Source: Sinohyriopsis cumingii (Eukaryota; Mollusca; Bivalvia; Unionida; Unionidae). Taken from it: 64,000 nt of DNA. The number at the start of each line of letters is the position of its first letter. The stretch's first letter is position 1. The DNA lies in the NCBI GenBank assembly GCA_028554795.2, contig CM068835.1, positions 28,956,311 through 29,020,310 of the forward strand. The letters are read 5' to 3'. Under the pieces are notes generated by a model that had not been told where the DNA came from, searched no databases, and was given only the letters and a program-made list of their open reading frames with translations. Shown piece after piece: positions 2,881-61,432 of the stretch. The translations under genes and the position numbers were made by a program.

Positions 2881-2896
2881 GGCCCTGAAAAGGGCC
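2881..2896 (-). terminator. Histone-type 3' stem-loop after gene A, element 1
   Basis: The minus strand reads GGCCCTTTTCAGGGCC: a 6-bp stem with a TTTC loop. It is preceded by CCAAA and followed by AGCCA, then a purine block CGAAAAGAGAATG about 12 nt on. It starts 41 nt after the gene A stop. This matches the replication-dependent histone mRNA 3' consensus, including spacing to a U7-type downstream element. Confidence 0.85.
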
Positions 2897-2937
2897 TTTG
2901 GTTTCTTCTTCTTCTTCTTCTTCTTCTTCTTCTGCTT

Positions 2938-3318
2938 CTAATTTCTTCTTTTTCGCCACCAACTTCTTATTTTCTCAGCTACACTCTTTTCCTTCTTTTT
3001 TTTCTCCTCCTCTTCTTTCTTCTCTTCCTCCTCCTCTTCTTTCTTCCTCTTCTCATTTTCTTCTTCTTTTTCAATTTTTTCATTCCATTTTCTTATTCTT
3101 ATCCTTTCCTCTTCATCCTCCTTCTCCTCCTTTATTTCCTTCATCACACCACTTATCATGTCCTTTGCTTTTCTTAAGTTGTTAATCTCCATTTTTACTC
3201 TATGCGGACTATAAGAATAGTGGTCTTCATTGAGTCGTACTAGCATTTGTTCTATCATGCCCAAATTGTCAAGGACGTCTTGCAATGTTTGAAATTTATC
3301 GAGGTGGTTCGAAGCCAT
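2938..3318 (-). CDS. Gene A: acidic/basic coiled-coil protein (element 1)
   Basis: 126 residues; family not recognised. An N-terminal amphipathic helical region (residues 1-65, including LQDVLDNLGMIEQMLVRL) leads into a highly charged Glu/Lys coiled coil (about 62-110) and a short basic tail KIRSWWRKRRN. The tail with paired tryptophans is kept in element 3 while the rest changes. It looks like a paralogue of genes B and C: same length class, a helical N-terminus, then a charged coil. ATG at 3318 follows a TATAAG motif (about 3359-3364) and a shared upstream promoter motif. The 3' end is a histone-type stem-loop. Function unknown; a scaffold or host-interaction protein is speculation. The long Leu/Ser frame on the opposite strand is a shadow of this coil. 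Confidence 0.75.
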   Translation of the reverse strand: MASNHLDKFQTLQDVLDNLGMIEQMLVRLNEDHYSYSPHRVKMEINNLRKAKDMISGVMKEIKEEKEDEEERIRIRKWNEKIEKEEENEKRKKEEEEEEKKEEEEKKKKEKSVAEKIRSWWRKRRN

Positions 3319-3358
3319 CTTCTCTGTAGAATGGTTTGAACGACGAATACTGTGGGTT

Positions 3359-3465
3359 CTTATACGAAAAGCGTGGACGTGAAGGAAAACATCCCCCTAA
3401 AACATAAAATTGATATTACCTAGATCATGACCTAACATCGTGCGGACGTGAAAGAAAACATCCCC
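3359..3465 (-). promoter_or_regulatory. Gene A promoter module, element 1
   Basis: Two near-identical 26-bp copies (3371-3396 and 3440-3465) whose minus strand reads GGGGATGTTTTCC then TTCACGTCC, about 69 bp apart. The proximal copy ends just upstream of a TATAAG box about 42 bp before the ATG. The same module precedes genes B and C in all three elements. Confidence 0.7.
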
Positions 3466-3479
3466 TACTTTTCTCATTT

Positions 3480-3800
3480 CATGTAATATACTATCCACAT
3501 AAGTGAAGCAACAATAAACTAACCCCAAATCTACTATTTACACACGCAAATCATTAAAACAAACCCAAATCTACTATCCACACAATCGTACGTGAGCTGT
3601 TACAAAACCCTAACTATACTCTCCACATACGCTAAGAAACAATAAACAAAATCCATAATCTACTATCCACACAATCGTACGTGAGCGGTTACAAAACCCA
3701 AACTATACTCTTCACATACGCTAAGAAACAATAAAGAAACCCATAATCTACCATTCACACAAACTTACGTGAGCAGTTACAAACACAAACACACAAACAC
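3480..3800. repeat. VNTR of about 85-90 bp units between genes A and B (element 1)
   Basis: Three to four degenerate units, each containing ATCTACTATCCACACAATCG, then TACGTGAGCGG, then TACGCTAAGAAACAATAAAC. Copy number differs between elements (about seven units in element 2, one or two in element 3). It lies upstream of the gene A promoter. No coding potential. Confidence 0.75.
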
Positions 3801-3854
3801 ATACACTCGCACTATGAAAAAAGAGTTAGTGTTTATATTCACACTACTCTACCT

Positions 3855-3907
3855 ACACACACACACACACACACACACACACACACACACACACACACAC
3901 ACACACA
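3855..3907. repeat. (CA)n microsatellite
   Basis: About 26 uninterrupted CA units between the VNTR and the gene B stem-loop. The equivalent position in elements 2 and 3 has only CTACACATT or CTACACACATT, so the expansion is private to element 1. Confidence 0.95.
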
Positions 3908-3947
3908 TTGGCAAATTGATGGTTATTTCTTTTCTAGAGTATTGGGT

Positions 3948-3963
3948 AGCCCTGAAAAGGGCT
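3948..3963 (-). terminator. Histone-type 3' stem-loop after gene B, element 1
   Basis: The minus strand reads AGCCCTTTTCAGGGCT followed by ACCCAATAC and then CTAGAAAAGAAATAACC. The outer stem pair is A-T instead of the G-C of the TIR copy, so pairing is kept by a double change. It starts 29 nt after the gene B stop. Confidence 0.87.
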
Positions 3964-59205: not shown

Positions 59206-59211
59206 GACAGC

Positions 59212-59535
59212 AGTAGTAAGTAGGGATACCATACGTACAATGGGAATTAGCATTACAGACCCCCCCGGGTCAATATACGTACAAGGGGAATTTAACATGG
59301 CGAAAAATCGTGGGTCAATATACGTACAAGGGGAATTTAACATGGGAATAAATCGTGGGTCACTTTACGTACAAGGGGAATTTAACATGGGGAATAGAGT
59401 TTGGGTTTGTTTAGGGACAAGGGGAATTGAACTTGGGATTTTTTTTTTTTTTTTTAAATTTTAAAAAAGGGGTAGGCAATTGAAAAGTCATTCTCTTTTC
59501 GAGAAATATGGGGGGCCCTGAAAAGGGCCTTTGGG
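59212..59535 (+). repeat. Element 3 left TIR
   Basis: Four TACGTACAA iterons and one TTAGGGACAA iteron, poly-T, and the stem-loop. Same class as element 2. The partner repeat lies beyond the window, so its length is inferred from element 2. Confidence 0.8.
59514..59529 (-). terminator. Histone-type 3' stem-loop after gene A, element 3
   Basis: GGCCCTTTTCAGGGCC on the minus strand; the 3' flank is CCCCA rather than ACCCA, then CTCGAAAAGAGAATGAC. It starts 23 nt after the gene A stop. Confidence 0.82.
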
Positions 59536-59552
59536 TTTTTCTTCTTCTGCTT

Positions 59553-60147
59553 CTAACTCCTTAACTTCTTCCACCATCCTCTTATTTTTTCCATCATTCC
59601 TTTCTTCTTCTTTTCTGTTTCCGGCATCCAGTCCGGGTGACCCATGGCTCGGAACTTGTTTTGGATTTTCATCCAATTGTTGTTAAGCCGCTCAAACTCT
59701 TCTTTTTTCCTTTTTGTTTTCCACATCTTTTCTTTCTTCCCTCCATTTCTCTTTAATCTTCTCTACTTCTTCCTCCATTACTTTTCTCATCAGATCTTCC
59801 CCTTTCTTCACCTTGTCCAACCCCCATTTTACATTCCTCCACTCTGTCCAGTATAATATCTTTTCTAGGAAGCACCGGACTTGGATGACATGATCCAGTG
59901 CTTCCTTCAAACTTCCCACTCTGAAGTAAGGTGGGTTAATGAAGCCTCTTGACTTATTGACTTCTTCTTCAATCATCCCTGCTATGATATCTCTTGCTGT
60001 CTTTAGGCCTTGAACTTGACTGGTTACAAAGTCTTTCATATCTCCATGCCTCCATTCCTCTTCTATTCTTCCTACAACATATTCTACATCCATTATCCAA
60101 AAATAGATGTCTCTCAATAGATTAAATAGAACTGATACTTGAGTCAT
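59553..60147 (-). pseudogene. Gene A, enlarged and frameshifted (element 3)
   Basis: Starts at ATG 60147 (MTQVSVLFNLLRDIYFWIMD). It contains two tandem modules resembling the gene A helical domain (around LKTARDIIAGMIEEE and LDKVKKGEDLMRKVMEEE), then a charged coil. A frameshift near 59693 (A-rich) separates it from the C-terminal part ending KIRGWWKKLRS, which matches the KIRSWWRKRRN tail of the other copies. Same promoter and stem-loop. The locus therefore varies in architecture between copies while its ends are fixed. Confidence 0.7.
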
Positions 60148-60526
60148 TTTCTCTCAGTTATTCCTTAGAATGGTTCCAACATCAAACTTTGTGGGTTCTT
60201 ATAGTGAAAGCGCGAACGTGAAGGAAAACATCCCCCTAAAACATAAAATTGATCTTACCTAGATCATGACCAAACAACGCGCGGACGTGAAGGAAAACAT
60301 CCCCTATTTTCTCATTTCATATAATAAAACCCTAACTATACTCTCCACATACGCTAAGAAACAATAAAGAAACCCATAATCTACCATTCACACAAACTTA
60401 CGCGAGCAGTTACAAACACAAACACATACACTCTCACTATGAAAAAAGAGTTAGTCTTTACATTCACACTACTCTACCTACACACATTGGCAAATTGATG
60501 GTTATTTCTTTTCTTGAGTATTGGGT
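60148..60526. other. Gene A promoter and short VNTR (element 3)
   Basis: Promoter motif copies near 60209-60236 and 60280-60305; one or two VNTR units (about 60310-60430); the gene B downstream element. No coding region. Confidence 0.65.
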
Positions 60527-60542
60527 AACCCTGAAAAGGGCT
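60527..60542 (-). terminator. Histone-type 3' stem-loop after gene B, element 3
   Basis: The minus strand reads AGCCCTTTTCAGGGTT, then ACCCA. The single change turns the second pair into G-U, which still pairs. 29 nt after the stop. Confidence 0.82.
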
Positions 60543-60571
60543 GGTTTTTTTTGAACTTCATGGACACCTGG

Positions 60572-60946
60572 TTAATGGTGGCACCTTCCAGGCCTGGCGC
60601 CACATACACATCTTGTTCCTCAGTTACTTTTTACTTTTTTGGGGGAGAGAGCAGAGGCAGGATATGTGGCTTCAGAATCCCAATTTTCGGTTTCTGGGAT
60701 TCTGAAATTTCTTCTTCTCTCCTTTTCCTCCTCCTCCTCTTCTTTGTATCTTCTCTCCTCCTCTTTGTATCTTCTTTACTCCTCTTCTTTATATCTTGTC
60801 TCCTCCTCTTCTTTGTTTCTTCTTTGCTCCTCCTCTCTCATCCTTCCTTCTTCCACAATGGCCTCCGCGGCCAGTTCGTTCAACAGGCGCCTGGCATATT
60901 CCAGATGCACATGAAGTTCCAACAGTTTCGCCAGTCTCGTGTTCAT
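60572..60946 (-). pseudogene. Gene B with nonsense codon (element 3)
   Basis: 125 codons from ATG 60946, the same length as in element 2. A TAA at 60776-60778 (codon 57) replaces a GAA within the RRYKEEE repeats. The Cys-containing C-terminus and stem-loop are kept. A recent single-base lesion. Confidence 0.8.
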
Positions 60947-61416
60947 TTTTGGTGTTGATCAATCAACAAGGGTAGCTAGACTGCCGAACGAGTTTCAATT
61001 TATAGTGAAAGCGCGGACGTGAAGGAAAACATCCCCTAAAAAACATAAAATTGATCTTACCTAGATCATGACCAAAAAAACAACGCGCGGACCTAAAAGA
61101 AACACTCACTCACTTTTTTATACTACCCATTCCTATTCTAAAAAATTTTTTCATTAATCACTCCAATATACTATTCACATACGCAAAGCAATTCAATCAA
61201 ACCCCCCCCCCCCAAATCTACTCTCCCACACCTCAAACAGCCAAAAAAAACATGATCTTAATCTACTATCCACACCAACGTACGTGAGATGTTACAAACA
61301 CAAACACACAAACACATACCCTCACACTATAAAAAAGAGTTAGTGTTTATATTCACACTACTCTACCTACACACATTGGCAAATTGACTGTTATTTCTTT
61401 TCTAGAGTATTGGGGT
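60947..61416. promoter_or_regulatory. Intergenic region B-C with gene B promoter (element 3)
   Basis: Promoter motif near 61012-61037 with a TATAAAT box near 61000; degenerate copy near 61086; gene C downstream element. Contains a C9-10 homopolymer (61203-61213). Confidence 0.6.
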
Positions 61417-61432
61417 AGCCCTGAAAAGGGCT
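61417..61432 (-). terminator. Histone-type 3' stem-loop after gene C, element 3
   Basis: AGCCCTTTTCAGGGCT, then ACCCC and CTAGAAAAGAAATAAC on the minus strand; 39 nt after the stop. Confidence 0.86.

Follow-up and report, generated by a model that had tools for sequence, protein, structure and literature searches.

Can genes that encode no histone be expressed through the signals that cells reserve for histone mRNAs? The question is raised by a 64,000-nucleotide stretch of the genome of the bivalve Sinohyriopsis cumingii (contig CM068835.1, positions 28,956,311 to 29,020,310; hereafter the window), in which three Polinton elements carry histone-type stem-loops behind five kinds of accessory gene, here called A to E and numbered by element. 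These signals are placed at the ends of the accessory genes and are identical to signals of the host histone genes, and the loop of gene E is conserved among genomic copies. Judging from the sequence, the accessory, non-histone proteins are very probably made from tail-less, histone-type mRNAs whose 3′ ends are formed by SLBP and the U7 small nuclear ribonucleoprotein (snRNP), and their production would hence be tied to S phase.

Histone-type stem-loops of the accessory genes

A pattern scan of the window located all 13 stem-loops that the initial annotation had reported, and all lie, as it had claimed, inside Polintons (three elements; Table 1). Each has the conserved 6-bp stem and 4-nt loop of a histone-type 3′ end. 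The sequence RGCCCTTTTCAGGGCY is exact at 12 of them, and the loop at 60527 reads AGCCCTTTTCAGGGTT, a single change that gives a G-U pair. Eleven loops are on the minus strand and two on the plus strand (19560 and 39929). Dinucleotide shuffles of the window gave a mean of 0.09 loop matches, and none of 100 shuffles reached 13. A comparison with the Rfam family RF00032, proposed earlier as a check, divided the loops: six reached the gathering score and seven fell below it. At E ≤ 0.0007, 12 of the 13 were matched (28.2–42.5 bits), and the G-U loop at 60527 was absent from the matches. The ACCCA-like flanks that had been described were present, as ACCCA or ACCCC at nine loops, AGCCA at 2881, 23329, and 39929, and CCCCA at 59514. 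Additionally, we detected a purine-rich element, GAAAAG(A/G), at +13 or +14 downstream of all 13 loops, which the initial annotation had not mentioned.

The loops follow the stop codon by 24–41 nt in eight accessory open reading frames (ORFs; A1, B1, C1, E1, A2, B2, C2, and C3), and by longer distances in D1 (150 nt) and A3 (162 nt). No AATAAA or ATTAAA occurs within 300 nt downstream of 11 of the 13 loops. An ordinary AATAAA, together with a GT-rich stretch, terminates the core gene block. Just 5′ of the E loop, at 19530–19549, is an inverted repeat, TGTTAA...TTAACA, whose arms are found again in other copies with a different middle.

The terminal inverted repeats (TIRs) and the 6-bp target-site duplications (TSDs) TGCATC and TACAAT identify elements 1 and 2 as Polintons. 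Pfam found PolB, an rve integrase with a chromodomain, and an A32-like ATPase among the window proteins, and no match for a 437-aa candidate for the double jelly-roll capsid protein. The elements share these genes, the TIRs, and the 6-bp TSD with Polintons/Mavericks and adintoviruses, and differ from them in that the accessory genes bear histone-type signals. In each complete element, one end holds genes A, B, and C, and the opposite end holds D with the divergent E. The loops of genes A and E are found at the inner TIR edge in element 2 and about 100 nt inside the TIRs in element 1.

Agreement with the 3′ ends of host histone genes

A search for host H4 gave 114 matches; most belong to tandem units of approximately 8.27–8.29 kb, and the host histone signals described here were taken from one such unit. 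The H2B loop, GGCCCTTTTCAGGGCC, is identical to the Polinton A/D/E loop at all 16 nt. The loops of H3 and H4 read GGCCCTTTTTAGGGCC, that of H2A GGCCCTTTTAAGGGCC, and that of H1 GGTCCTTTTCAGGACC. The five host genes scored 35.0–39.4 bits with RF00032. Their GAAAAG is positioned at +13 in H3, H4, and H2B and at +14 in H2A and H1; the purine-rich histone downstream element (HDE) of the 13 window loops thus has the same fixed spacing as in the host histone genes. According to PMC9756948, the stem-loop and the HDE are recognised by SLBP and the U7 snRNP.

The similarity extends beyond these elements. In gapped alignments of the 42 nt 3′ of the loop, the closest host sequence was that of H2A for B1 (z = 6.2) and that of H3 for E1 (z = 6.7), and all 25 Polinton/host pairs of post-loop sequences gave z ≥ 2.3 against mononucleotide shuffles. 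We take the 3′ modules either to have arisen from histone genes in the lineage of the host or to have been adapted to them. They share with the 3′ end of replication-dependent histone mRNAs (RF00032) the six-pair stem, the UUUC loop, the ACCCA-like flank, and GAAAAG at +13/+14. They differ in belonging to non-histone genes of a mobile element, and in the A-U closing pair of genes B and C.

Histone promoter elements upstream of genes A, B, and C

A promoter module, GGATGTTTTCC(A/T)TCACGTCCGCGC or a variant of it, was found 5′ of genes A, B, and C in the three elements (12 sites), with a TATA-like stretch after it. Two plus-strand matches of the short promoter search motif are unrelated to these modules. 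The host H2B promoter, GATGTTTTCCATCACGTCCGCGCT, is identical over 24 nt to the promoter of B2 and over 21 nt to that of B1. The host H4 promoter, TTTCTTTTAGGTCCGCGCGTT, shares 21 identical nt with the second element of B1 and B2, and this stretch is present in the promoters of B2 (25206) and B3 (61091). The promoters of genes A and C have 10–13 nt in common with host H2B or H1 (H1 element: GGGATGTTTTCAATCACGTCCGCGCT). As a control, nine Polinton promoters were compared with host DNA taken at random from the flanks (300 windows of 300 nt); the longest exact match was 14 nt.

Within the 64 kb, the heptamer TCCGCGC is found 10 times, always inside A, B, or C promoters, and in the host histone unit it stands 5′ of H4, H2B, and H1. 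The promoter element GTCCGCGC is common to these three host genes; H2A carries TCCGCGT as a variant, and no TCCGC stands within 260 nt upstream of H3. Among the genomic copies, the motif was found upstream in 23 of 24 A and eight of nine B copies, after the exclusion of nine rows with insufficient upstream sequence. In both the window and the copies, the element of A, B, and C lies at about −70 to −90, and its distance from the ATG is similar to that in the host histone promoters. The Polinton element differs from these host promoters in that it would drive genes A to C, and D and E have another promoter.

This D/E promoter is divergent, with a TATA stretch on both sides, TGACGTCA, and two ATTGG. 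Of 48 rows compared, 45 retain TGACGTCA, 47 the two ATTGG, and 47 TATAAA. The A/B/C element resembles the site for HiNF-P in vertebrate H4 genes. According to PMC5706932, HiNF-P is a protein that binds to the promoters of H4 and recruits NPAT to them.

Abundance and conservation of the copies

RF00032 gave at least 75 matches in the 2.9-Gb host genome. We fetched the loci of 69 of the 75 matches listed; all 69 carried accessory genes and none a histone gene, a result that is confined to the matches listed and does not thereby place the histone genes lower on RF00032. A search with gene E returned at least 150 scored matches among 18,068 candidates, all with at least 95% identity, so that many copies are young; the Polinton family is judged from these sequences to be both young and highly abundant. 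The gene E copies include evenly spaced neighbours, approximately 21 kb apart, on contig 9 near 84.7 Mb.

The module was assessed independently in 89 hairpin-like matches from the 69 fetched copies, excluding the Rfam hits themselves. It was complete in 68 of the 89 (65 of 69 loci), with the purine element at +13 in 66 and at +14 in two. The other 21 matches had no module, and comparable rows are nearly all chance matches at 11 of 14 positions. Among the 69 modules of the Rfam hits, GAAA stands at +13 in 53 and at +18 in one.

The divergence of the E loop was 0.003, compared with 0.064 for the purine element, 0.140 for the ACCCA flank, 0.121 over 100 nt of mostly ORF sequence on the upstream side, and 0.202 downstream, in a set of 20 sequences (18 loci not fetched via the E loop, and two window copies) that favours well-kept elements because the loci were chosen by the D loop. 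The D loop itself lacked the module in two of 30 rows, and the other 28 carry 11 changes. The B loop was present in 20 of 20 copies, with an exact 14-nt core in 13. In the G class of loops (n = 43), the stem closes with G-C in 41 and with G-U in two; in the A class (n = 24), it closes with A-U in 20; one further row has a C.C closing pair. The median dN/dS of gene E among copies was 0.10 (970 non-independent pairs), and gene E is, by the comparison of these sequences, under purifying selection.

Proposed expression of the accessory genes

The initial annotation proposed that the elements use host SLBP/U7 processing to time the five accessory genes to S phase. The cis-signals uphold this proposal at the 3′ end, where the loop, the spacing, and the downstream element are those of the host histone genes, and also at the promoters of A, B, and C; the promoters of D and E do not. 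From these cis-signals we infer which factors are bound, how the mRNAs end, and their timing in S phase. Processing by U7 and SLBP is the most economical reading because the Polinton signals are identical to the host's own, and the timing follows from established histone biology. SLBP would bind the stem-loop of the accessory mRNA, the U7 snRNP would pair with the GAAAAG element 13 nt downstream, and CPSF73 would cleave about 5 nt 3′ of the loop, with no poly(A) tail added. Since genes A, B, and C carry the host histone promoter element, their transcription would probably coincide with that of the histone genes. Accessory proteins would be produced during cellular DNA replication and their mRNAs destroyed once it stops, while the core genes would use ordinary polyadenylation.

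A broader proposal, to which we attach somewhat less confidence but which we still consider likely, is that a virus-like transposon has rebuilt the host histone regulon, comprising the histone promoter element and the SLBP/U7 3′ end, on its own non-histone genes. The accessory proteins would then be produced alongside histones, possibly at the histone locus body, and only during DNA replication (germ cells, early embryos).

Several observations weigh against histone-type expression. At the 3′ ends, AATAAA is present downstream of two loops (25518, +64; 38866, +50), and 15 of the 69 Rfam-hit modules have no GAAA in the 35 nt examined. Pairing is impaired by an A.C closing pair in four of the 24 A-class loops and by a broken second pair (A.C) in three of the 43 G-class loops, and the D loop shows no contrast with its surroundings (0.052 vs 0.055 upstream; 30 rows kept, 18 dropped). 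At the promoters, the proximal A elements of the window deviate inside the core, and that of D/E has no run of at least 10 nt in common with the host histone promoters. As for the trans factors, the pairing energy of the HDE with a vertebrate U7 sequence was no better than controls and was worst at 60527. Neither host U7, in an Rfam search, nor host SLBP, in searches with Pfam and a human SLBP stretch, was found, in each case without a positive control. A pattern search for host U7, likewise without a positive control, gave 22 matches compared with 13 for the reversed pattern; of the 16 inspected, none was convincing.

The histone-type 3′ ends might instead serve mainly to provide stable, translatable, tail-less mRNA, such as for eggs and early embryos or as an escape from deadenylation, rather than S-phase timing. 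Such a role would suit the presence of the 3′ module on all five genes and of the histone-like promoter on three only, but the identity of the A, B, and C promoters with those of host H2B, H1, and H4 points to transcriptional co-regulation too, and we regard the explanation as unlikely. We give considerably less credence to a relic, in which the end of a histone gene was captured once and is carried unused in a young, fast-spreading family. The many near-identical copies of gene E, the D loop that evolves no slower than its surroundings, and the histone-gene similarity that continues past the hairpin speak for such a relic. Opposed to it are the E loop, which is far less divergent than either side, the closing pair compensated between gene classes (G-C vs A-U), the lack of a nearby poly(A) signal after 11 loops, and the purifying selection on gene E.

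Two further explanations appear to us extremely improbable. One is a hairpin of the mimivirus type, that is, a palindrome at which other enzymes cleave and polyadenylate the transcripts. Hairpin-directed 3′ ends of this type in giant viruses are described in PMC4402537, and a hairpin at the transcript ends of a DNA virus is what the two systems have in common. The mimivirus ends are polyadenylated by viral enzymes; here, by contrast, we see not diverse palindromes but one near-invariant host histone sequence with histone spacing and a U7-type downstream element, and Pfam detected no polyadenylation or cleavage enzyme among the 10 window proteins tested. The other, to which we assign an equally small chance, is that the inverted repeats act as DNA, either as a cruciform or as a site of replication or recombination close to the termini. 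It is true that the loops of A and E lie at or near the TIRs, but the B, C, and D loops are internal, and the flanks and downstream element are strand-specific and placed after the end of the ORF. S-phase expression from histone-type mRNAs remains the reading we prefer.

Replication-dependent histones are regarded as the special case of mRNAs that end in a stem-loop instead of a tail, and to our knowledge this would be the first natural set of non-histone genes under histone mRNA control. If the proposal is correct, a mobile element can appropriate the histone programme as a package for unrelated proteins, and the elements offer a natural test of the cis-elements sufficient for replication coupling. 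Polinton activity would be tied to S phase, accessory expression would coincide with the time at which a self-replicating element profits most, and the escape of accessory transcripts from poly(A)-selected RNA-seq would be explained. The literature searched, which includes few subscription journals, does not join Polinton with SLBP or 'histone mRNA', in agreement with the earlier statement that no such report was known. Word searches of PMC8097293, PMC11071308, and PMC9683012 found no mention of histone or SLBP. PMC12721341 mentions histone for dinoflagellate proteins, and PMC11071296 refers to histone-like proteins of adomaviruses. In IMG/VR, queries with the capsid candidate, the integrase, and PolB retrieved no relatives, nor did three stem-loop patterns.

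Accessory proteins and other features of the window

The earlier claim that no histone ORF is present is borne out: there is none among the ORFs listed for the window, and none of five accessory ORFs tested matches a Pfam histone family or any other Pfam family above the cut-off. The structure predicted for A3 consists of four helices (predicted local distance difference test (pLDDT) 88), and we do not classify the accessory genes as encoding histones. Gene A occurs in two types among the copies, a short E/K-rich form (as at 2938–3318) and a longer one (as at 59692–60147). In the model, the longer form seems to contain a helical-hairpin unit twice. The prediction for gene E was uninformative (pLDDT 50). 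Protein C2 has nine homologues among public proteins, with 69–81% identity, and the reading frame of B3 is broken, leaving an ORF of 56 aa. Gene D encodes a conserved W-DF-DFL stretch (EEVNWDFVDFLTSQEF-type) and a basic C-terminal part, and it has a basic PKRIRPSRAK stretch; its sequence suggests a transcription activator with a nuclear signal.

Table 1. Positions of the Polintons, histone-type signals, and accessory genes in the window.
Feature	Position	Strand	Remarks
Polinton 1, complete	2395..20067		TIR arms 2395-2773 / 19687-20067; 6-bp TSD TGCATC
Polinton 2	23027..40246		TIR arms 23027-23353 / 39920-40246; 6-bp TSD TACAAT
Polinton 3, left part	starts near 59212, ..64000		Continues beyond window end; arms match element 2 TIR; genes A3, B3, C3
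Stem-loop, gene A1	2881..2896	-	RF00032 33.9 bits
Stem-loop, gene B1	3948..3963	-	A-U closing pair; RF00032 29.9 bits
Stem-loop, gene C1	4856..4871	-	A-U closing pair; RF00032 28.2 bits
Stem-loop, gene D1	18488..18503	-	RF00032 38.4 bits
Stem-loop, gene E1	19560..19575	+	RF00032 42.5 bits
Stem-loop, gene A2	23329..23344	-	RF00032 35.6 bits
Stem-loop, gene B2	24632..24647	-	RF00032 31 bits
Stem-loop, gene C2	25518..25533	-	AATAAA 64 nt downstream; RF00032 31 bits
Stem-loop, gene D2	38866..38881	-	AATAAA 50 nt downstream; RF00032 41.2 bits
Stem-loop, gene E2	39929..39944	+	RF00032 35.6 bits
Stem-loop, gene A3	59514..59529	-	RF00032 35.2 bits
Stem-loop, gene B3	60527..60542	-	One change (G-U pair); no RF00032 match
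Stem-loop, gene C3	61417..61432	-	RF00032 28.2 bits
Promoter module of B2	25110..25145	-	24 nt identical to host H2B promoter
Other promoter module starts	3394, 3463, 4478, 5351, 23842, 23911, 26008, 60233, 60302, 61034, 61923	-	
Second promoter element of B1	4525..4550	-	21 nt identical to host H4 promoter
Divergent D/E promoter	19086..19304	.	TATA both sides, TGACGTCA, two ATTGG
Accessory gene A1	2938..3318	-	126 aa, helical, E/K-rich; no Pfam above cut-off
Accessory gene B1	3993..4391	-	132 aa
Accessory gene C1	4912..5262	-	116 aa
Accessory gene D1	18654..19085	-	143 aa, shortened; many other copies have 182-196 aa
Accessory gene E1	19305..19535	+	76 aa, basic
Accessory gene A3	59692..60147	-	151 aa, four predicted helices
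AATAAA poly(A) signal	5480..5485	-	End of element 1 core gene block

ORFs with motifs resembling CCHC zinc knuckles (CYICQKKGHWSSEC) are located at 17786–18028 in element 1 and 38144–38539 in element 2, on the plus strand and thus opposite to the core genes, and no histone-type loop is assigned to them. Two tRNA-like RF00005 matches in the host flank (54791–54863 and 57072–57144) are probably tRNA-derived repeats.

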